A DNA stretch of 33,696 nt from contig JACCYV010000262.1 in the NCBI GenBank assembly GCA_013696305.1, positions 1 to 33,696 on the forward strand. Direction: 5' to 3'. The DNA is from Nitrospira sp. (GTDB lineage Bacteria > Nitrospirota > Nitrospiria > Nitrospirales > Nitrospiraceae). Position numbers and translations under genes: made by a program. Of the stretch, positions 4,360-31,622 are shown in pieces; within the stretch, counting starts at the first letter, position 1; each line of letters starts with the position of its first letter. The notes beneath the pieces are model-generated. The model saw only the letters and a list, made by a program, of their open reading frames with translations, did no database searches and was not told the origin of the DNA.

Positions 4360-4743
4360 ATGAGTGTGAAGAAGGGCAAAAAGAAAGAACGCAAGATGGT
4401 CCAGAGTGGGGTGGCTCACGTTCAAGCGTCGTTCAATAATACGATCGTGACCATTACCGACATGAGCGGCAATACTGTCGTATGGGCCAGTTCCGGCAAT
4501 CAGGGATTTAAGGGATCACGGAAGAGCACTCCCTTCGCGGCACAGCGGGCTGGAGAGGCCGCTGCGAGGAAGGCGATGGAAAACGGCATGCGGCAGGTTG
4601 ATGTGTACGTCAACGGTCCAGGAGCCGGGCGCGAATCCGCCATCCGTTCGCTGCAAAGTGCTGGATTGCGCATCAATCTTATCCGTGACGTGACACCCAT
4701 CCCCCATAACGGCTGTCGCCCGCCGAAACGCAGACGGGTATAG
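4360..4743 (+). CDS. rpsK: 30S ribosomal protein S11
   Basis: [28 protein letters not shown]...[15 protein letters not shown]. Confidence 0.97.
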
Positions 4744-4821
4744 CATCCATCCGGACGTTGTCATAACAAGGTAAGCGCTGTCGAGTCGTTTGAGTCGTTG
4801 AGGTAGAGGAGGGGTAGGAGC

Positions 4822-5448
4822 GTGGCAAAATATAGTGGGCCGGTCTGTCGGTTATGTCGGAGAGAGGGCGAGAAGCTTTTCTTGAAAGGGTCTCGTTGCA
4901 TGACCGAGAAGTGCGCTATTGAGCGCCGGAGTTATCCCCCCGGACAGCACGGTCAGGCTCGTCAGCGGACATCGGATTACAGTCTGCAGTTACGTGAGAA
5001 GCAGAAACTGAAAAGAATTTACGGCTTGCAGGAATGTCAATTCCGCGGCATTTTTGAGCGGGCAGAACGTCAAACCGGAGTGACCGGCAATACGCTGCTA
5101 CGTTTATTGGAGTGCCGATTGGACAATGTCGTGTACCGGCTCGGCTTCGGCGCCTCACGCAAGGAGGCCAGACAGTTGGTCAATCATGGCCATATGATGA
5201 TCAATGGTCGCAAAGTCAAGGTGCCCGGCGCGCTTGTGAAGGCAGGCGATTCCGTGGAAGTGCGGCAGAAGAGCCGTGAGATGCTTCCCATCCAAGGCGC
5301 GCTCGCGGCAGTCGATGGGCGGGGGATTCCGGAGTGGCTTGAGTTGGACAAGGGGGCCTATAAAGGGACAATTCGGTCATTGCCGACAAAGGAGCATATC
5401 GTGCTGCCGGTGAATGAACAAATGGTTGTGGAATTGTACTCGCGCTAA
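4822..5448 (+). CDS. rpsD: 30S ribosomal protein S4 (Cys-containing N-terminus)
   Basis: MAKYSGPVCRLCRREGEKLFLKGSRCMTEKCAIERRSYPPGQHG; GTG start. Confidence 0.97.
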   Translation: MAKYSGPVCRLCRREGEKLFLKGSRCMTEKCAIERRSYPPGQHGQARQRTSDYSLQLREKQKLKRIYGLQECQFRGIFERAERQTGVTGNTLLRLLECRLDNVVYRLGFGASRKEARQLVNHGHMMINGRKVKVPGALVKAGDSVEVRQKSREMLPIQGALAAVDGRGIPEWLELDKGAYKGTIRSLPTKEHIVLPVNEQMVVELYSR

Positions 5449-18884: not shown

Positions 18885-20144
18885 ATGGCAGCGAAGCGGA
18901 CAGTCACTCAGCTGGAACAGGCCTTGCGTGAAAAAACGCGTGAGGTCGACGTTCTGCATCGCATCAGCGAGTCGATCAGCAACACCCTCGACCTGGAGTC
19001 GGTTCTTCGGCATATCGTCGAGATGGTCGTGGAAGTGACCAAGGCCGATGCCTGTCTGCTGTACCTTATCTCCGACGGCCGGGACGAACTTATTTTGCGA
19101 GCCTCGAAAAACCCTCATCCCAAACTGATCGGTCGGATCACCATCGGATTGGGCGAAGGGATCACCGGCTGGGTGGCGAGGGAACGGACCCGTGTGGTGA
19201 TTCCGAATAGTGCGAGCGATGATTCGCGGTTCAAGTTTTTTCACAATCTCCCCGAAGATCGCTACCAGGCGTTTGTTTCAGTGCCTATTACGACCAAGCA
19301 GGAAGTCGTCGGAGTCATCAATGTGCAGCATAAGCGGGCGCGCCGGTATCGTCCTGACGAGCTGGCACTGCTCTCGACGATCGCCACACAGGTGGGAGGG
19401 GCTATCGAGAACGCCCGGCTGTACGATCAGATGACACGCAAGGCCTTGCAACTCGATACGCTGTCACAGGTGTCGGAAACCGTGTCGTCGAATCGATTGA
19501 TCGAGGATGTGTTGCAATTGATTGTGACGATGACGGCGCAAATGATGGGGTCGAAAATTTGTTCCATCATTTTGTTGGACCAGACGACGGGCGAACTGCG
19601 CATCGCAGCCACGCAAAGTTTGAGCGAACAGTACCGGCGCAAACCTCATGTGAAGATCGGCCAGAGCATCAGCGGGCGTGCCGTTCAGGATCGTCGGCCG
19701 ATCATCGTGCCGGACGTCACGACAGACAGTACCTATATGTATCCCGATATGGCGGCGAAGGAAGGGCTGTGTTCCCTTCTGTGTGTGCCGATGCTGGTGC
19801 GGGAGAAAGCCATTGGGGTCATCAACACCTACACTTCCCATTCGCATGTCTTTACGAACGAAGACGTGAAATTGATGCAGGCCATCGCCAATCAGGCTGC
19901 GATTTCAATCGAGCATACGACATTGCTGGAAAAGTCTTTTGAAATGCAGGAGGCGTTGCAAGTCCGCAAGCTTCTCGATCGGGCCAAAGGATACTTAATG
20001 CGATCGAAGCGGTTGTCGGAAGAGGAGGCCTTCAAGTTGATTCAGCGACAAAGCATGGATCTTCGCAAATCCATGCGAGAGATAGCTGAAGCTATTCTGC
20101 TGGCCGCTGAAATTGAAGATCGAGCCGACAAAAACAGAGGATAG
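18885..20144 (+). CDS. Tandem GAF-domain ANTAR transcription antitermination regulator
   Basis: Two GAF-like segments (about aa 25-165 and 180-335), then a C-terminal ANTAR domain: VRKLLDRAKGYLMRSKRLSEEEAFKLIQRQSMDLRKSMREIAEAILLAAE. Confidence 0.88.
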   Translation: MAAKRTVTQLEQALREKTREVDVLHRISESISNTLDLESVLRHIVEMVVEVTKADACLLYLISDGRDELILRASKNPHPKLIGRITIGLGEGITGWVARERTRVVIPNSASDDSRFKFFHNLPEDRYQAFVSVPITTKQEVVGVINVQHKRARRYRPDELALLSTIATQVGGAIENARLYDQMTRKALQLDTLSQVSETVSSNRLIEDVLQLIVTMTAQMMGSKICSIILLDQTTGELRIAATQSLSEQYRRKPHVKIGQSISGRAVQDRRPIIVPDVTTDSTYMYPDMAAKEGLCSLLCVPMLVREKAIGVINTYTSHSHVFTNEDVKLMQAIANQAAISIEHTTLLEKSFEMQEALQVRKLLDRAKGYLMRSKRLSEEEAFKLIQRQSMDLRKSMREIAEAILLAAEIEDRADKNRG

Positions 20145-20148
20145 CCTA

Positions 20149-21111
20149 TTACGGGGTGCGATCTGCAGGCCGCGCAGGCCGTGATTTTTTTGAGGGCGCC
20201 GCGTCACGTTTGGTCTGCTGCTCGCTCAGCTGCCGTTTGATCTCCTCGAGTTCCTTCCGCAATTCCTCGACTTCCGAATCTTTCTTTTTCAAGCTTTCTT
20301 TAATGGTTCGAAGATCGGTATCGGTCTCCGCAGGCCGATCCGGATGCAGGGTTGGAGACGACTGCGAACTCTCTAGTGAGAGCCCCGTAAGGGGCGCGGG
20401 GATCAACGAGGCGGGCAGTTTCGCGAGCGCGTCATAGTCGATCACAAGAACATTGGTTGAGTCATCGGCCAGGGCTGGTGTGAACTGATCAGAACGCAAC
20501 GCTTCCGCAGGCACAAACAAGACCTGCCGATTGAGAAGTCCCTTCGGCTGTGGGAGGCGGCGATTCGGCATGTTGATCGTGTCAGGTTCGTCCCGCCGCT
20601 GCCGGTACTCGGTCAGAGAGATATAGAGTGAACGGCCGTACGCGAACACATGGCCGGTGGTGGTTTCTTTGGCTGATAGCTGCAGTGGTGGTTCCGAGGA
20701 GCCGACTGCCGCGCCTGCCCGCTCCCGGTATCCCCCTTCACTTCCCCTTAGCAGCCGAAAACCCACCTGTTGATCCGCGGCCGCTTGCTTCAACCCTTCT
20801 GCAATGGCGGGAGCGAGAAAGGCGACTTCAGTTCCTGAAAAGACCGGCACGGTCGGCTTCTGATTCGCGGCCAAGGCCCGCAGGAGCCCGGTTTCTTCAC
20901 GGATCATTATGCCCTGTAAGCTGCGCGCGATCAGACCCTGGTCAAGTCGAATGGGATGGGTCGCCTGGAACTGGCGATCGGAAATGCGATCCAGATAGAC
21001 CGTGCCTTGTGCAGATTCGCGGACGATACTGTCGACTCGCGAACCGGTCGTGCAACCTACGGCCGGCAAAACCAAAACGAAAACAAGGGCGGCAGTCCGA
21101 CAGCCATGCAT
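20149..21111 (-). CDS. Lipoprotein with C-terminal coiled coil, unknown function
   Basis: Signal with lipobox (MHGCRTAALVFVLVLPAVGC); C-terminal heptad-like segment (TIKESLKKKDSEVEELRKELEEIKRQLSEQQ). An upstream start at 21147 is possible. Confidence 0.75.
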   Translation of the reverse strand: MHGCRTAALVFVLVLPAVGCTTGSRVDSIVRESAQGTVYLDRISDRQFQATHPIRLDQGLIARSLQGIMIREETGLLRALAANQKPTVPVFSGTEVAFLAPAIAEGLKQAAADQQVGFRLLRGSEGGYRERAGAAVGSSEPPLQLSAKETTTGHVFAYGRSLYISLTEYRQRRDEPDTINMPNRRLPQPKGLLNRQVLFVPAEALRSDQFTPALADDSTNVLVIDYDALAKLPASLIPAPLTGLSLESSQSSPTLHPDRPAETDTDLRTIKESLKKKDSEVEELRKELEEIKRQLSEQQTKRDAAPSKKSRPARPADRTP

Positions 21112-21205
21112 GCGAGGTGGTTCCTTCTTCGTAGGCTCAGCGCGCAACGAGGCAGTGTATCACAGAGAAAATCGTAAGAGGTGAGGAACTCATCGTGAAC
21201 CTTGC

Positions 21206-21235
21206 TTGACAGCAACGCTTTCGAAAGCGTATACA
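21206..21235 (+). promoter_or_regulatory. Predicted sigma70 promoter of porin/urt leader
   Basis: TTGACA (21206-21211), 18-nt spacer, TATACA (21230-21235). Spacer contains the perfect palindrome ACGCTTTCGAAAGCGT (21215-21230). Confidence 0.6.
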
Positions 21236-21255
21236 CCCCACCTGTGTGCGTCGCG

Positions 21256-21318
21256 GGTCAGGACAATGACGTCCTACCTTGTTGTCGACATCAATAATGC
21301 CGAGGACAATGACGTCCT
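21256..21318 (+). ncRNA. Candidate ANTAR-binding dual-hexaloop RNA leader
   Basis: AGGAC-AATGAC-GTCCT at 21260-21275 (extendable by GGT/ACC across one bulged C) and again at 21303-21318. Both are 6-nt loops with A1 and G4. Confidence 0.85.
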
Positions 21319-21355
21319 TTTGGTCCGATGGTTGGACCGGAAGGGCGTTTTTTTT
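21312..21355 (+). terminator. Intrinsic terminator overlapping second hexaloop hairpin (antitermination target)
   Basis: ACGTCCTTTTGGTCC (21312-21326) pairs with GGACCGGAAGGGCGT (21334-21348) over 15 bp with 3 G-U; 7-nt loop; T8 at 21348-21355. Confidence 0.88.
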
Positions 21356-21413
21356 CGTGATGGCTCTCCGGTCTATCTCATGCGAATCGTCTCTAACCGG
21401 GAGGGCTATCAGG

Positions 21414-22784
21414 ATGAATGCACGTATATCAGGAGCAATCGTACTGGGGGCGATCATCATGATGATCGCGGCCGTCGCGAGTTCGGTCTGGGCAGAGGAT
21501 CAGAGCGCCGGAGAGGCGGCGGGAGCCGGTCAACGACTTCGGGAAGTGGAGACCCCGCCCGCGGTGATTTGCGGCGGCTGTGTCAGTCCCACCTTCGCGG
21601 GCGAAGGCAAGGGTAGCATCGTCCCGTATGGTCGCATCGAACTGGATGCGATTTATAGCACCCGAAATACGAACCCGCTCGATCCCGGTCAGTTCAATGG
21701 CTATGCGACCGCCGCCGGCAAAAGCAGCAATGCGTCCTCAACCCTCAATCCTCGCTATAGTGTCTTCGGCCTGCGAGCCGACCGGACGGATGGGACACAC
21801 ACGCTCACGGGCGTCGTAGAAGCGGACTTCTACAGCCAGACCGACAATGCCGGAAACATCTCACCCCGCCTGAGATTGGCCAACGTCAAATATTCTCCGA
21901 ACAACAGCCGGACGACTATTACGGCAGGCATGGATTGGACGCCGATCATGTCGTCTCACCCGAACCTCGTCGATTTCTCCATCATGGGTTATAACGGGAA
22001 TTTGTGGCAACGCCTTCCGCAGATCACGGTGAAACATCAGTTTAACGACAATGTCAACGGCTTGTTAACGGTCATGCGATTCGAGCGCGGGCTGTCGGCC
22101 ATTCAGCCGCAGACGCAGCGGCGGACTTTTCAAGGGGCCGGTGCGGCGGCGGCGGTGCCGGGCAGTTGCGGAGGAAGCGGCTTCGCCTGTTCCGAAAACG
22201 CATTCAACGACCCGGTGCAAATGCCGTATGTCGGCACTCGGTTCGCGTACACGGGAACGGGTGATCAGGCGGGCTATATGGTGGCACTGAATGCCGCCTT
22301 TCGGCACTACCGATCCGCGCCTACCGCCGGGGGGATCCCCGCCGGCAATGACATTAACTCATACCTCGTAGGGGCGGAACTTGCGGTGCCCTTGACCAGC
22401 CGGTTGAAATTTACCGGCGAGGTTGCCTATGGGCAAGCGCTCGGGGTTGAATTCTTTCGCTATGGACAAGAGCGAAATCTTGGCACAGGAAAGGCGATCC
22501 GCACGGTGGTCGGTTGGGGAGAACTGGATTACGCCTATGATCGGCGGCTCACACTTATCGCCGGCTATGGATTCGACAATCCGCTGAATTCCGATTTGAA
22601 GGGAACCAGTGCCGGCCCCGACACCCAATATGTGCTCAATCATCGGACCTACTTGACGGCCGTTCGCCATATTTGGGGCGACTTGTACGCGTCGTTGGAG
22701 TGGAATCACCTTATGAGCGAATGGTCGACCGGTGAGCATTTTGCCGGGGATAATTTTATGCTCTCAACTTGGTACAACTTTTAG
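21414..22784 (+). CDS. Outer membrane beta-barrel porin, probably for urea/short-chain amides
   Basis: Signal peptide (MNARISGAIVLGAIIMMIAAVASSVWAED), repetitive amphipathic beta strands, C-terminal aromatic (WYNF); directly upstream of urtA. ORF track start (21279) lies inside the leader. Confidence 0.75.
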   Translation: MNARISGAIVLGAIIMMIAAVASSVWAEDQSAGEAAGAGQRLREVETPPAVICGGCVSPTFAGEGKGSIVPYGRIELDAIYSTRNTNPLDPGQFNGYATAAGKSSNASSTLNPRYSVFGLRADRTDGTHTLTGVVEADFYSQTDNAGNISPRLRLANVKYSPNNSRTTITAGMDWTPIMSSHPNLVDFSIMGYNGNLWQRLPQITVKHQFNDNVNGLLTVMRFERGLSAIQPQTQRRTFQGAGAAAAVPGSCGGSGFACSENAFNDPVQMPYVGTRFAYTGTGDQAGYMVALNAAFRHYRSAPTAGGIPAGNDINSYLVGAELAVPLTSRLKFTGEVAYGQALGVEFFRYGQERNLGTGKAIRTVVGWGELDYAYDRRLTLIAGYGFDNPLNSDLKGTSAGPDTQYVLNHRTYLTAVRHIWGDLYASLEWNHLMSEWSTGEHFAGDNFMLSTWYNF

Positions 22785-22812: not shown

Positions 22813-24177
22813 ATGATCTTTCAGAAACCACACGGTGCGGATGACTCGATACCTACCGCGACGAATGAGGCCCCGTCCTCGCGGCGCGATTTTTTGTGGC
22901 AGAGTTCACGAACCGCAGTCGGGATCGGAGTCGCGGCCTTGCTGGGAAACCTGGGCCGTTGGGCGCTGTCCTACGGAGCCGACAAGGAGCCGATCAAGAT
23001 CGGGGTGTTGCATTCGCTCAGCGGCACGATGGCGATCAGCGAAGTATCCTTGAAAGATGTCGTGTCGATGGCGGTCGAAGAAATCAACGCAAAGGGCGGC
23101 CTGTTGGGGCGTTCACTGAAGCTGGTGATCGTCGACCCGGCCTCGAACTGGGATCTGTTCGCAGAGAAAGCCAAACAATTGTTGGTGCAAGATAAGGTGG
23201 CAGTAGTCTTCGGCTGCTGGACGTCGGTCAGTCGGAAATCTGTGTTGCCGGTGTTTGAAAAGAACAACGGCTTGCTCTTCTACCCCGTGCAGTATGAAGG
23301 GGAGGAGTGCTCACGGAACGTGTTCTACACCGGCGCGGCGGTCAACCAGCAAGCCGTCCCGGCCGTGGAGTATCTGATGAGCAAGGAAGGGGGCGGGCAC
23401 AAAAAGTTCTACCTGCTCGGGACCGACTACGTCTACCCGCGGACGACGAATAAAATTCTTCGCGCCATGTTATTGGCCAAGAAGGTGCCCGCAGGCAACA
23501 TCATGGAGGAGTACACGCCGTTTCATCATCAGGACTATCAGACCATCGTAGGGAAAATTAAGAAATTTTCAGCCGGAGGAGGCGCCTGCGTCATCAGCAC
23601 CATCAACGGCGATAGCAATGTACCATTCTATAAAGAGTTTGCGAATCAGGGACTGCGCGCCGAAGATGCGCCGATCATGGCATTCAGCGTCGCGGAAGAC
23701 GAACTGCGCGGGATGGACAAGACGGCGCTGGTCGGCCATCTGGCGGCCTGGAATTATTACCAGAGCGTGGACACGCCGCAGAACAAGCAGTTTGTGGCCA
23801 ACTTCAAGGCCTATTGCAAAAAAAATAATCTGCCGGATGGCGACAAGCGTGTCACCGACGATCCGATCGAAGCCGCTTATTTTGGCGTGCATGTCTGGAA
23901 GCAGGCGGTGGAGAAGGCCGAGAGCACAGAGGTGGATGCGGTACGCAATGCCGTCTATGGACAGAAATTCCTTGCACCGGGCGGAGACATCATGATGGAT
24001 GATGTCAACCACCATACCCACAAGCCGGTGCTGATCGGCGAAATTCTCAAGGATGGGCAAATCAAGGTCGTCTGGAAGTCGAAGGGATTGGTCAAACCGG
24101 AACCGTGGAGCGAATACACGAACCCGGAAAAGGGGTGCGATTGGGTGAAACATCAAGGGACCTACAAGAAAGCCTAA
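22813..24177 (+). CDS. urtA: Urea ABC transporter substrate-binding protein
   Basis: Tat-like signal SSRRDFLWQSS; IKIGVLHSLSGTMAISEVSLKDVVSMAVEEINAKGGLLGR. Confidence 0.96.
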   Translation: MIFQKPHGADDSIPTATNEAPSSRRDFLWQSSRTAVGIGVAALLGNLGRWALSYGADKEPIKIGVLHSLSGTMAISEVSLKDVVSMAVEEINAKGGLLGRSLKLVIVDPASNWDLFAEKAKQLLVQDKVAVVFGCWTSVSRKSVLPVFEKNNGLLFYPVQYEGEECSRNVFYTGAAVNQQAVPAVEYLMSKEGGGHKKFYLLGTDYVYPRTTNKILRAMLLAKKVPAGNIMEEYTPFHHQDYQTIVGKIKKFSAGGGACVISTINGDSNVPFYKEFANQGLRAEDAPIMAFSVAEDELRGMDKTALVGHLAAWNYYQSVDTPQNKQFVANFKAYCKKNNLPDGDKRVTDDPIEAAYFGVHVWKQAVEKAESTEVDAVRNAVYGQKFLAPGGDIMMDDVNHHTHKPVLIGEILKDGQIKVVWKSKGLVKPEPWSEYTNPEKGCDWVKHQGTYKKA

Positions 24178-24217: not shown

Positions 24218-25759
24218 ATGAGGCGCGTGGTCTGGATTGCGTTGGTCTGGTGGAGCGTGGCATGGGTCGTGACCGACGTGCCGGCGGCGGAGGCACTCAC
24301 GGGTGCCTCTCCGCCGTCTCCGCTTGAGCAAGCATTGCAGGCTCTGTACAGTGACGAGGAGGCGACGCGAGAGCAGGCGGTTCGTGTGCTGATCGAACAG
24401 GGCGATGCGACGCTCCTGCCACGCTTGGATGAGTTGCGGGCCCATGCGGATCGAAGCCTCCGCATGGCGATCAAGCCGGTGGCCGATGCGTGGCGACACC
24501 GCGACGACTTGGCCAGCCCGGATGCCGATATAAGGCGTTCGGCGGCAACCGACCTCGGGACGAGCGGTCGGGCGGTGGCGATTCCCTGGCTGGAGGCCGC
24601 GGCAGGCTTTGAATCACACCATTGGGTTCGTTATGCGATGGACGAGTCGGCACAGTTGCTGAAGCTCGCCTCCGACGATCCGGCCATCAAGGCCCAGGCC
24701 GCGACGAAACTGGGCGAACTGCGCAGCCAGAATGCAGTGCCGGCATTGAAAGCACTGGTGCAGGCGGCCGAGGAATCAGGTGGGACTGAGCAGCAGAAGC
24801 CCCTTGCGCGGGCCGCTACGGCCGCCATTGACCGGATCGAAACCTGGAACGTCTGGTCGACGGCGATCGAAACCGTGTTTCGCGGCATCAGCCTGAGTTC
24901 CATCCTCCTCATCATGTCCGTAGGGTTGGCGATCGTGTTCGGGTTGATGGGCGTCATCAATATGGCGCATGGCGAACTGATGATGATCGGAGCCTATGCC
25001 ACCTTTGTGATGCAGGAATGTTTTAAACTCTATGTTCCTTCAAGCTGGTTCGACTCCTATTACCTGGCGGCCCTCCCGGCCTCGTTTCTTGCCGCAGCAG
25101 TGTTCGGATTGATCCTGGAAGCGACGGTCATTCGCTTTCTCTACGGCCGTCCCCTCGAAACGATGCTGGCGACCTGGGGTGTCAGCCTGATTCTGATTCA
25201 GGCCGCCCGCATCTATTTCGGTGATTTGACGGCGGTCACCGCTCCGGCCTGGCTCAACGGCGGTGCGCAGGTCATGGTGGGAGTGTTCCTGCCCTTTAAT
25301 CGTCTGTTCATCATCGGCCTCTCCATTCTCTGTGTCATGGGGATTTACGCGTTGCTGTTCCGGTCGAGCCTCGGGTTACGAGTGCGGGCCGTCACGCAGA
25401 ATCGCAACATGAGCGCCTGTCTGGGAATTCCCACCAGAAAGGTGGACGCCTACACCTTCGCCTTCGGGTCCGGTTTGGCCGGGATTGCGGGGTGGGCTTT
25501 AACCCTGGTCGGGAATGTCGAGCCGGGACTCGGTCAAAACTACATCGTGGACTCATTCATGGTGGTCGTGACCGGTGGTGTCGGCAAACTCGCCGGAACG
25601 ATCATTGCCTCATTGGGCATCGGCGGGTTGAATAAATTGATGGAGCCGAGCCTGGGCGCAGTATATGGGAAGGTCTTGATCCTGGTGCTGGTGATTCTCT
25701 TCCTGCAGCGGCGACCCTCAGGGCTGTTTGCCGTCAAGGGGCGTCAGGCCGAGGGCTGA
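24218..25759 (+). CDS. urtB: Urea ABC transporter permease UrtB with N-terminal HEAT-like region
   Basis: N-terminal ~200 aa helical repeats, then LivH-type permease (VGLAIVFGLMGVINMAHGELMMIGAYATFV). Confidence 0.95.
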   Translation: MRRVVWIALVWWSVAWVVTDVPAAEALTGASPPSPLEQALQALYSDEEATREQAVRVLIEQGDATLLPRLDELRAHADRSLRMAIKPVADAWRHRDDLASPDADIRRSAATDLGTSGRAVAIPWLEAAAGFESHHWVRYAMDESAQLLKLASDDPAIKAQAATKLGELRSQNAVPALKALVQAAEESGGTEQQKPLARAATAAIDRIETWNVWSTAIETVFRGISLSSILLIMSVGLAIVFGLMGVINMAHGELMMIGAYATFVMQECFKLYVPSSWFDSYYLAALPASFLAAAVFGLILEATVIRFLYGRPLETMLATWGVSLILIQAARIYFGDLTAVTAPAWLNGGAQVMVGVFLPFNRLFIIGLSILCVMGIYALLFRSSLGLRVRAVTQNRNMSACLGIPTRKVDAYTFAFGSGLAGIAGWALTLVGNVEPGLGQNYIVDSFMVVVTGGVGKLAGTIIASLGIGGLNKLMEPSLGAVYGKVLILVLVILFLQRRPSGLFAVKGRQAEG

Positions 25760-25775
25760 GGATAGAGCAGGCAGA

Positions 25776-26924
25776 ATGGGAGAATCGCTGACACCATCAT
25801 CGAATGCGGAGCGAAACGAAGGCACCATCTTTTGGGTCGTCGGTTTCGTGCTGCTCTTTGTCCTTCCGGTCCTCAACGTGTTGCCGACGGAGAATTCCTG
25901 GCTGCATGTGTCCGATTTCGCGCTGAACCGATTCGGGAAGTTCCTGGCCTTTGCCATCCTCGCGCTCGGCCTCGATTTGATCTGGGGGTACGCCGGCATC
26001 CTCAGTCTGGGACAGGGAGTTTTCTTCGGGTTGGGCGCCTACTGCATGGGGATGCACCTCATGCTCACGATCGGAAACGAAAGTGTCTACGGCAGCGCCC
26101 TGCCGGACTTCATGGTGTGGAATCAAGTCACGGAACTGCCGTTTTTCTGGAAGCCCTTCTACAGCTTCTCTGCCGCTGTATTAGCCGGCCTGTTGGTTCC
26201 GGCATGCTTCGCGCTCGTCTTTGGATTTCTCGCCTTCCGTAGCCGGATCCGCGGCGTGTATTTTGCGATCATCACGCAGGCGCTGGCACTCATGGCGTGG
26301 CTGGTCTTCAATCGGAATGAAACGAATCTGGGGGGCACGAACGGCCTGACGGACTTCAAGACGATCTTGGGATTTCGTCTCTCCGATCCGGGGACGCAGC
26401 TCGCGCTCTACGTCGTCACGGTGCTGTGCCTGGGGGGCGCCTATCTGCTGTGCCGCTGGATCATCGGTTCGCGGGCCGGGCGGGTTCTGATCGCCATCCG
26501 CGACAGCGAGCAGCGCGTGTTGTTTTCCGGCTACTCGCCGGCCAATTACAAACTGTTCGTCTTCGTGGTGTCGGCCGCGCTGGCAGGCCTCGCGGGAATG
26601 CTCTATGTCCCGCAGGTCGGCATCATTACTCCCGCGCAGATGGGCGTCCTGCCGTCCCTCGAAACGGTGATCTGGGTAGCAGTGGGAGGCCGAGCCACCC
26701 TGGTCGGAGCCATCGTCGGAGCTGTGGGTGTGAACCTGGGACGCAGCATTCTCACGAACCACTTTCCAGAATTGTGGCCGTTCTTTTTGGGCGGGCTCTT
26801 TGTGGTCGTGGTCTTGCTGTTTCCCGACGGGGTGATGGGCATCACCAGGACGCTGAGCGAGAAGCTGACGATGTGGAGCGCCCGTCTTCGAAAGGCCCCC
26901 GCTGCGGAGGAGGAGCAGGCATGA
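25776..26924 (+). CDS. urtC: Urea ABC transporter permease UrtC
   Basis: LivM-type permease (LGLDLIWGYAGILSLGQGVFFGLGAYCMGMHL); order in urt operon. Confidence 0.95.
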   Translation: MGESLTPSSNAERNEGTIFWVVGFVLLFVLPVLNVLPTENSWLHVSDFALNRFGKFLAFAILALGLDLIWGYAGILSLGQGVFFGLGAYCMGMHLMLTIGNESVYGSALPDFMVWNQVTELPFFWKPFYSFSAAVLAGLLVPACFALVFGFLAFRSRIRGVYFAIITQALALMAWLVFNRNETNLGGTNGLTDFKTILGFRLSDPGTQLALYVVTVLCLGGAYLLCRWIIGSRAGRVLIAIRDSEQRVLFSGYSPANYKLFVFVVSAALAGLAGMLYVPQVGIITPAQMGVLPSLETVIWVAVGGRATLVGAIVGAVGVNLGRSILTNHFPELWPFFLGGLFVVVVLLFPDGVMGITRTLSEKLTMWSARLRKAPAAEEEQA

Positions 26925-27688
26925 CGGAACATGGCTCCATCATCTATCTGGAAGGCGTGACCGTCGATTATGACGGCTTCAAGGCGTTAAATAGTCTGAA
27001 CTTCATCGTCAATCATCGCGAGCTGCGGGTGGTGATCGGACCGAACGGAGCCGGTAAGACGACGCTCCTCGATGTGATCTCAGGCAAGACCAAACCGGCG
27101 GCCGGGCGCGTGATCTTCGGCAAAGACACGCATCTCATCGGCATGCGGGAGTATGAGATTACGCAACTCGGGATCGGAAGAAAGTTCCAGGCGCCGTCGA
27201 TCTATGGCAATCTGACCGTCTGGGAAAACCTCGATCTCTCGCTGAGCCGTCCCAGCAAGGGCGTGCTGTTTACGCTGAGAGGCCGTTCGACGACAGCGGA
27301 GAGAAACCAGATCGATGAGGCTCTGGAAACCATCGGATTAAAGAATCAGGCGCACCTCCGAGCTGGGTCGTTGTCTCATGGCCAGAAACAATGGCTCGAA
27401 ATCGGCATGGTCATTTTGCAGGATCCGGAATTGCTGCTGGTGGATGAACCGGTGGCCGGCATGACGGACGAAGAGACGGAACAAACCGGACGGTTGCTGC
27501 AGTCGCTGGCGGAGAAACATGCCATCGTCGTCATCGAGCACGATATGGAGTTCGTGCGGCAGATCGCGCGCATCGTCACCGTGTTGCACGAAGGAACCGT
27601 AATTTGCGAGGGGCCGGTAGAGAAGGTGCAGGCTGATCCGCGCGTCGTGGAGATTTATCTAGGCCGCCACAAGGTCACGCATGCCTAG
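26921..27688 (+). CDS. urtD: Urea ABC transporter ATP-binding protein UrtD
   Basis: [37 protein letters not shown]; start overlaps urtC stop. ORF track start (26426) is an artefactual extension. Confidence 0.95.
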   Translation: MTEHGSIIYLEGVTVDYDGFKALNSLNFIVNHRELRVVIGPNGAGKTTLLDVISGKTKPAAGRVIFGKDTHLIGMREYEITQLGIGRKFQAPSIYGNLTVWENLDLSLSRPSKGVLFTLRGRSTTAERNQIDEALETIGLKNQAHLRAGSLSHGQKQWLEIGMVILQDPELLLVDEPVAGMTDEETEQTGRLLQSLAEKHAIVVIEHDMEFVRQIARIVTVLHEGTVICEGPVEKVQADPRVVEIYLGRHKVTHA

Positions 27689-27779
27689 CAGGATGTTGAT
27701 CGCGCTTCCAGCGTCGTTCTCGGCCTGCTGCCTTGCCGGAGGCACTTTGAATATCCTAAGAGAGTAATGTAGCCATACT

Positions 27780-28490
27780 ATGTTGCGGCTTGAGAAGATT
27801 AACGTCTACTACGGCGAGAGCCATATCCTGCGAAACGTCTCCTTTCACATTGAGGCGGGCCAAGTGGCCTGCGTGATGGGACGTAACGGCGTCGGCAAGT
27901 CCACGACGCTCAAGGCCATTATGGGCCTATTGCCGGTGCGCAGCGGGCAAGTCCTTTTCGACGGAGCGGATCTCACGAAGGAGTCGACCGATCGGCGTGC
28001 CAAGCGCGGCCTCGCCTATGTGCCGCAGGGGCGGGAGATTATTCCGCACTTGACGGTGCGCGACAACCTCCAACTCGGTTATTGGGCGCGCGGGACTGCG
28101 GCGAATGGACCGTCCGAAAAGGCCGCCTTCGACGAGGTGTTTACCCTCTTCCCCAAGCTCACGCACATTTTGGAGCGGCCGGGCGGTGTCTTGAGCGGCG
28201 GTGAACAACAGCAGCTCGCGATCGGACGCGCGCTGCTGTCGAATCCAAAGGTGCTCTTATTGGATGAACCGACGGAAGGCATCCAGCCCTCGATCGTCGA
28301 TCAGATTGAAGACGTCATCATCGGGTTCAAGGCGGCCCGTCGGTTTGCAATCGTCCTGGTCGAGCAGGGTCAGCATTTTGCGGCACGATTGGCGGACAGT
28401 TATGTGGTGATGGCCAAAGGAGCGGTGATGGCAGCGGGGAAAAAGGATGAGCTCAGTGCCGAGATGGTGAAGCAGCATTTGACCGTGTAG
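27780..28490 (+). CDS. urtE: Urea ABC transporter ATP-binding protein UrtE
   Basis: GRNGVGKSTTLKAIMGLLP; LSGGEQQQLAIGRALLSNPKVLLLDEPTEGIQPSIV. Confidence 0.96.
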   Translation: MLRLEKINVYYGESHILRNVSFHIEAGQVACVMGRNGVGKSTTLKAIMGLLPVRSGQVLFDGADLTKESTDRRAKRGLAYVPQGREIIPHLTVRDNLQLGYWARGTAANGPSEKAAFDEVFTLFPKLTHILERPGGVLSGGEQQQLAIGRALLSNPKVLLLDEPTEGIQPSIVDQIEDVIIGFKAARRFAIVLVEQGQHFAARLADSYVVMAKGAVMAAGKKDELSAEMVKQHLTV

Positions 28491-29894: not shown

Positions 29895-31622
29895 ATGAAA
29901 ATTCCACGTCGACAATACGCCGATCTGTACGGCCCGACCGTTGGGGATCGTATCAGGCTGGCCGATACGGATCTGCTGGTCGAAATCACGCGCGATTTGA
30001 CCGTGCCTGGGGAAGAGGCCAAGTTCGGTGGCGGCAAAGTCATCCGCGACGGGATGGGACAGTCTCCGGCTGCCACTAGAGCCAAGGGTGCGCTGGATCT
30101 CGTCATCACGAATGCCATCATCATCGATTGGTGGGGCGTGGTGAAGGCCGATATCGGAATTCGCGACGGACGGATTGCCGGCATCGGCAAATCAGGGAAT
30201 CCCGATCTGATGGACGGTGTCACGAAAGGCATGGAGATCGGGCCTTGCACGGAGGTGTTGTCCGCCGAAGGAAAAATCATCACGGCCGGTGGGATTGATA
30301 CGCACATCCACTTCATCTGTCCGCAGATCATCACCGAGGCGTTGGCCAATGGACTGACGACGCTCATCGGGGGAGGCACAGGACCCGCGACTGGAACGAA
30401 CGCCACGACCTGCACGCCGGGGCCATGGAACATTCATCGCATGCTGGAGGCGGCGGACGGCTTTCCGATCAATTTGGGATTCCTGGGCAAAGGCAATTCG
30501 TCCCTGCCTGAAGGATTGAACGAGCAGGTCGAGGCAGGTGCCATTGGTTTGAAGCTGCATGAGGATTGGGGCACGACACCGGCCGCCATCGACACCTGTC
30601 TGAATGTGGCGGAACGTTACGATATTCAGGTGGCGATCCATACCGATACGATCAACGAGGCCGGGTTTGTCGAGGACACGATCAAGGCCTTCAAGGGCCG
30701 GACGATTCACTCGTTTCATACCGAAGGCGCAGGCGGTGGTCATGCTCCGGATATTATCAAGGTCTGCGGCGAGGCGAATGTCTTACCCTCCTCGACGAAT
30801 CCCACCATGCCCTTCACGATTAATACGATGGATGAACATCTCGACATGCTGATGGTGTGCCACCATCTCAATCCGCGTGTGCCTGAAGACATCGCCTTTG
30901 CCGAATCGCGTATCCGTCGTGAAACCATTGCCGCCGAGGACATTCTGCATGATCTTGGCGCGATCAGCATTATGTCGTCCGATTCACAGGCGATGGGGCG
31001 AGTCGGCGAGGTCATCATCCGCACCTGGCAGACGGCACACAAAATGAAAGTGCAGCGGGGGCATTTGTCGGAACGCGGCATCGACAAGCGTGATGGCCAA
31101 CATGACAATTGGCGCGCGCGACGGTACGTGGCGAAGTATACGATCAATCCCGCCATCGCGCATGGGGTGGCTCATGAGGTGGGATCTGTCGAAGTGGGCA
31201 AGCTGGCGGATCTTGTGTTGTGGAAACCAGCCTTCTTCGGGGTGAAGCCTGAAATAGTAATCAAGGGCGGCTTCCCCATGTCGGCGGCGATGGGCGATCC
31301 CAATGCTTCGATACCGACGCCCCAGCCCGTGCTGACGAGACCGATGTTTGGAAGTTTTGGCCGTGCGCCCTTCTCCACGAGCCTGACCTTTCTTTCTCAG
31401 AAAGCCTTGGAGCGAGAGGTGCCGAAACAGCTGGGATTGCAGAAACGCGTCACGGCGGTCAAGGGCTGTCGAACCATCGGCAAGCGCGATCTGAAATTGA
31501 ATGATGCGTTGCCGAGGATAGAGGTCGATTCCGAAACCTACGAAGTGCGCGCGGACGGAGAATTGCTCACATGCGAACCGGTGGAGGTTCTTCCCATGGC
31601 TCAACGCTACTTCTTGTTTTGA
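29895..31622 (+). CDS. ureC: Urease subunit alpha (catalytic)
   Basis: [22 protein letters not shown] (carbamylated Lys), [22 protein letters not shown]; active-site residues retained. Confidence 0.98.

Follow-up and report, generated by a model that had tools for sequence, protein, structure and literature searches.

A probable ANTAR dual-hairpin antitermination leader ahead of the porin-urt operon in Nitrospira, and related leaders before nitrogen-acquisition genes across the order

Introduction

Antitermination of nitrogen operons by ANTAR proteins has been described for NasR and nasF of Klebsiella oxytoca and for AmiR and amiE of Pseudomonas aeruginosa. NasR, a one-component protein, uses its NIT domain to sense nitrate, whereas AmiC is the protein that holds AmiR. 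In the EutV/EutW-eut system of Enterococcus faecalis, EutV carries a receiver domain, and the RNA target consists of two hairpins with 6-nt A-N-N-G-N-N loops, the second of which (P2) overlaps an intrinsic terminator (PMC3369931, PMC8934654). The main text of Ramesh et al. 2012 describes the mechanism and predicts leaders before genes for PII, for ammonium, urea and nitrate transporters and for glutamine synthetase, including a regulon in Desulfotomaculum acetoxidans with many leaders per genome and multiple attenuators per operon.

Nitrospira are major nitrite oxidisers, some of them complete nitrifiers. Searches of an open-access library yielded no report of ANTAR antitermination in Nitrospira, which does not prove that none exists, and no account of nitrogen-source switching by antitermination in these bacteria. 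Here we analyse a window of 33,696 nucleotides from Nitrospira sp. (GenBank assembly GCA_013696305.1, contig JACCYV010000262.1), in which the region upstream of a set of porin and urea transport genes is very probably an ANTAR dual-hairpin transcription-attenuation leader, relieved by a GAF-GAF-ANTAR protein and belonging to a nitrogen-supply regulon. ANTAR-type antitermination had been proposed in an earlier, sequence-only reading of this DNA, and is supported here by conserved hairpins and terminator, compensatory changes and a sole ANTAR gene nearby.

The leader and its alternative folds

A 16-nt sequence, AGGACAATGACGTCCT, occurs exactly twice on the forward strand, at 21260-21275 and 21303-21318, and was absent from 100 dinucleotide shuffles. 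Each copy folds into a 5-bp stem with the 6-nt loop AATGAC, which begins with A (A1) and has G as its fourth base (G4). The first hairpin, P1 (21256-21278, loop 21265-21270), is lengthened by GGT/ACC past the bulged C21259, and the second, P2 (21302-21319, loop 21308-21313, −6.9 kcal/mol), the presumed antiterminator, by a G21302-U21319 pair; the linker between them (21279-21301) measures 23-27 nt, depending on the number of stem pairs counted. The repeat coordinates, stems, loops and bulge agree in full with the sequence-only reading.

An intrinsic terminator (21311-21349, forward strand) shares bases with the 3' arm of P2. It has an 18-bp stem, a 3-nt loop at 21329-21331 and a predicted energy of −27.4 kcal/mol, closed by a run of eight T at 21348-21355; the 15-bp helix read earlier (21312-21326 with 21334-21348, three G-U pairs) is its core. 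Since bases 21314-21318 serve both the P2 3' arm and the terminator 5' arm, the two structures are mutually exclusive, as had been claimed. The fold of the whole leader is 5.4 standard deviations more stable than those of shuffled sequences. Forcing P1 and P2 in the complete leader gives −39.5 kcal/mol, compared with −48.8 kcal/mol for the free fold, and because of this cost of about 9 kcal/mol P2 needs help to win.

Upstream of the leader, the promoter-like element TTGACA-18-TATACA, also reported earlier, can be read directly at 21206-21235 of the forward strand (TTGACA 21206-21211, TATACA 21230-21235), and of 69 related leaders 45 have an equivalent TTGAC-N15-19-TRT box upstream, whereas 0.9% of random positions do. 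A generic promoter scan of the leader region found none; it missed this element because its last-base rule demands T at position 6.

The operon downstream

The leader is followed on the forward strand by porin-urtABCDE, as the sequence-only reading had it. The first gene (21414-22784, ATG at 21414) encodes an outer-membrane porin-like protein that has no Pfam or NCBIfam match and co-occurs with urt in relatives. It is followed by urtA, for the binding protein of a urea ABC transporter (22816-24177; TIGR03407, E 4e-175, above cut-off), by the permease gene urtB (24218-25759; TIGR03409, E 7e-117), and by urtC, urtD and urtE (25773-28490), which carry Pfam permease and ABC ATPase domains and complete the order urtABCDE; urease genes lie further downstream. 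An Rfam match to 5_ureB_sRNA at 30050-30336 on the reverse strand, antisense to ureC, was set aside as most likely reflecting urease gene homology.

On the other side of the leader, the reverse strand carries a lipoprotein-like gene of no known family (20149-21147). Distant homologues of it (25-53% identity) adjoin leaders in several relatives (L275, L276, L277, L279, L281, L283 and L303), often on the opposite strand.

The GAF-GAF-ANTAR protein

One kilobase upstream of the leader, a forward-strand gene (18885-20144) encodes a protein of 419 residues with two GAF domains and an ANTAR domain (Pfam E 3e-19; PF03861, 68.9 bits against a curated cut-off of 27.3), the presumed antiterminator. The ANTAR protein that the earlier reading had invoked is thus present, and its ANTAR domain is the only one in the genome. 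Identity is 92-96% throughout the genus; for other families within the same order it is 64-73%. An AF2 model (pLDDT 80.6, pTM 0.53) predicts two GAF folds, a long helix and a three-helix ANTAR end, with C-terminal helices at residues 325-375, 379-393 and 397-418.

The ANTAR domain is homologous to that of EutV, with some RNA-contacting residues kept and others changed. R142, K143, K149, E160, M172 and R175 of EutV are identical; Y164, the tyrosine that stacks on G4 of the loop, is matched by phenylalanine, and R168, N173 and R177 are replaced by Q, D and S.

Among named relatives, GAF1 is closest to the GAF domain of PtsP/EI-Ntr (NCBIfam E 1e-38; 3ci6 E 3e-22) and GAF2 resembles the N-terminal part of NifA (E 3e-28), with the PtsP and NifA matches falling below the family cut-offs since the GAF parts alone align. 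A response to 2-oxoglutarate has been attributed to the GAF domain of NifA. The GAF domain of EI-Ntr binds glutamine (PMC4848567). The likeness of the two domains, in sequence and in fold, to those of EI-Ntr/PtsP and NifA suggests sensing of glutamine and 2-oxoglutarate.

Conservation of the leaders

A pattern of P2 plus terminator was found in 60 of 101 related genomes, with a single match in the reversed control, and the P1 motif lies upstream of 54 of the 64 distinct P2-terminator sites, compared with 1.9% expected by chance. Across 61 distinct P1 sequences the covariation score of P1 is 0.536, against 0.207 ± 0.019 for shuffled alignments and at most 0.21 when the pairing is slid; six of its eight pairs vary on both sides, and the outer pairs, which lie outside the motif, are 98, 93, 83 and 80% complementary. 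For the whole leader the score is 0.440 against 0.177, and the terminator helix covaries too. P2 is nearly invariant across leaders, which is imposed by the search pattern and by its double duty, and the A1 and G4 of the seed sets are likewise imposed in part by the search patterns.

A covariance model built here from these leaders (R1) matches 92 of the 101 genomes, with one to eight sites each, and recovers leaders outside its seed, some of which have an altered P1 closing pair and keep A1 and G4. The linker between P1 and P2 has a median length of 25 nt (range 10-39, 69 leaders). Leaders before porin-urt in other members of the genus retain P1, P2 and the overlapping terminator, so that the check proposed with the earlier reading, conservation of loops and stems in orthologous leaders with compensatory changes, turned out in its favour. 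In the distant family f2, leaders lying directly 3' of the ANTAR gene (L284-L289) mostly have G at P2 loop position 1 and keep G4, possibly through co-evolution with the ANTAR protein.

The regulon

Enough downstream sequence was available to assess 81 of 84 seed sites, and 69 of these 81 precede nitrogen-acquisition operons, many of the sites being orthologous and hence not independent. The 69 comprise 33 before porin(-urt), 20 before nadE(-amtB-PII-glnD), 13 before porin-amtB and three before a cyanate-type transporter with cynS. In the genome of the window, contig 45 carries a leader before nadE-DUF6733-amtB-PII-glnD-glnA and a tandem pair of leaders (4737-4931 of G000:C45, locus L275) before nirC-cynS-nirA, and N. 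defluvii has leaders before the same two gene sets, again with a tandem pair (L276, 12119-12319). In N. moscoviensis leaders precede nadE...glnA and amtB, and tandem leaders (L278, 5154-5342) precede a cyanate-type transporter and cynS; R1 gave no match in the interval from the ANTAR gene to urtA of this species, and leaders before urt are not universal. In family f2 the leader directly 3' of the ANTAR gene is followed by nadE-amtB, and one such leader stands ahead of nadE-glnA in a further family of the class. The sequence-only reading of a urea-uptake switch was too narrow, since urea uptake would be one arm of a wider regulon for acquiring nitrogen.

In four Nitrospira MAGs (L162, L164, L165 and L169) the leader 3' of the ANTAR gene lies ahead of paired genes for a histidine kinase and a response regulator, which a porin gene follows. 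Tandem leaders should terminate more tightly than one leader. A PF02461 search for AMO, with comammox in mind, gave no match, nor did it in control genomes, and absence is not proven.

Co-occurrence of leaders and regulator

An ANTAR gene is present in 93 of the 101 relatives, 92 of which have exactly one copy. Leaders occur in 89 of the 93 genomes with an ANTAR gene and in three of the eight without (p 8e-5, phylogeny ignored), and all three of the latter are less than 90% complete.

Genus g14 was sampled by choosing genomes according to leader status, and under this choice a leader is found in five of five genomes with an ANTAR gene against one of 20 without (p 1e-4). Put the other way round, the 19 leaderless genomes all lack the ANTAR gene, which is present in five of the six with a leader; the exception, G219, has a single leader, whose terminator pairs poorly, and no ANTAR gene. 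The genes aroB and nadE, which in other genomes flank the ANTAR gene and a leader, are adjacent in G068, which has lost both. The joint absence across g14 could reflect one or a few loss events. In family f4, urtA is present in three of four genomes, and neither ANTAR genes nor leaders were found.

Most sampled g14 genomes (G068 and 18 others) have no ANTAR gene and no leader.

Alternative explanations

A terminator as strong as this one, favoured in free RNA at −27.4 kcal/mol, might act as a passive intrinsic terminator or attenuator, the hairpins being incidental and the protein uninvolved. Termination does not require P1, but P1 covaries while its A-N-N-G loop stays; the leaders vanish together with the ANTAR gene, and the sites precede functionally related operons, all of which makes a passive terminator very improbable. 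Much the same small probability attaches to a leader read by a metabolite-binding riboswitch or by another RNA-binding antiterminator, an idea that draws on the single physiological theme among the downstream genes. The Rfam search of the leader gave no match even at E 10, conservation falls on the positions that mark ANTAR targets, the linker and terminator loop vary freely around no conserved aptamer core, and the leaders co-occur with a single ANTAR gene. Inspection of the alignment by eye showed no conserved reading frame or aptamer core, and leader-peptide and riboswitch readings were rejected.

The ANTAR protein could also be involved with another polarity or output, being active under nitrogen excess or acting on translation or RNA stability; translational ANTAR-RNA systems are among those proposed (PMC3369931). 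In essentially every leader the terminator incorporates the P2 3' arm, which fits antitermination, and since about 60 nt separate the end of the T-run from the porin ATG, the ribosome site stays clear of P2. A different output is accordingly a slim prospect, if marginally less slim than the two readings above.

Proposed mechanism

Under ANTAR-dependent antitermination, transcription would start near 21242 and, when the regulator is inactive, the 18-bp terminator would form and the transcript would end near 21355, as its stability and the T-run suggest. An active GAF-GAF-ANTAR dimer would hold P1 and then P2, keeping the P2 3' arm from the terminator, and the polymerase would then read into porin-urtABCDE, a step predicted from homology to known ANTAR systems and from the bases that P2 and the terminator have in common. 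This regulator would also act on the leaders that precede nadE-amtB-PII-glnD-glnA and nirC-cynS-nirA, judging from their structure and gene order, and because such leaders exist, it appears to be a regulator of nitrogen supply and not one specific to urea. Its signal is probably cellular nitrogen status, perceived through the GAF domains, and the ligands may possibly be glutamine and 2-oxoglutarate, to which domain resemblance points faintly.

A wider proposal is put forward tentatively and with some doubt: that nitrogen assimilation in Nitrospirales (uptake of ammonium, urea, cyanate and nitrite, PII, glutamine synthetase and NAD synthetase) is placed under one orphan RNA-binding regulator, which would read glutamine and 2-oxoglutarate directly through EI-Ntr-like and NifA-like GAF domains and antiterminate on long-linker double hairpins with a contact geometry unlike that of EutV, some lineages having dropped regulator and leaders as a set.

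Comparison with known systems

The sequence-only reading was too generous in regarding the urea circuit as novel, as urea transporters are already among the ANTAR targets predicted in the main text of Ramesh et al. 2012. The D. acetoxidans regulon predicted there likewise has many leaders per genome and several attenuators per operon; Nitrospira is absent from that main text, which ties no single regulator to an order-wide regulon. From what can be read in the genomes, related switches appear to stand, throughout a whole order, ahead of genes for the uptake of urea, ammonium, cyanate and nitrite, and the features that would distinguish this system are its one orphan regulator, an order-wide regulon in nitrifiers, linkers of about 25 nt and PtsP/NifA-like GAF domains. 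With a single conserved regulator and a leader recognisable in sequence, the regulon can be read from any genome, and urea, cyanate and ammonium uptake become testable as one circuit.

Like NasR, the Nitrospira protein is a one-component regulator, but NasR senses nitrate through its NIT domain, and NasR and AmiR, in contrast to the Nitrospira protein, have been described with a single controlled locus each. PtsP/EI-Ntr and NifA share the GAF likeness, but their output is a phosphotransferase or a σ54 activator where here it is an ANTAR domain. EutV is built on a receiver domain and targets eut, whereas the Nitrospira protein is a one-component GAF-GAF sensor and the leaders precede several nitrogen operons. 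The leaders also differ in spacing, natural eut linkers being 5-12 nt long (PMC3369931, PMC8934654) and those of Nitrospira about 25 nt. In eut, a 14-nt linker drastically cuts induction and an additional 20 nt abolishes antitermination in vitro. The ANTAR domains may be arranged otherwise in the GAF-GAF dimer, or folding of the linker may shorten the distance. Because the general definition of ANTAR targets, as given in PMC3369931, allows a variable linker, its length sets the Nitrospira leaders apart from the eut subtype and not from the ANTAR family, and theirs would be an ANTAR system with a linker that violates the EutV-based spacing rule.
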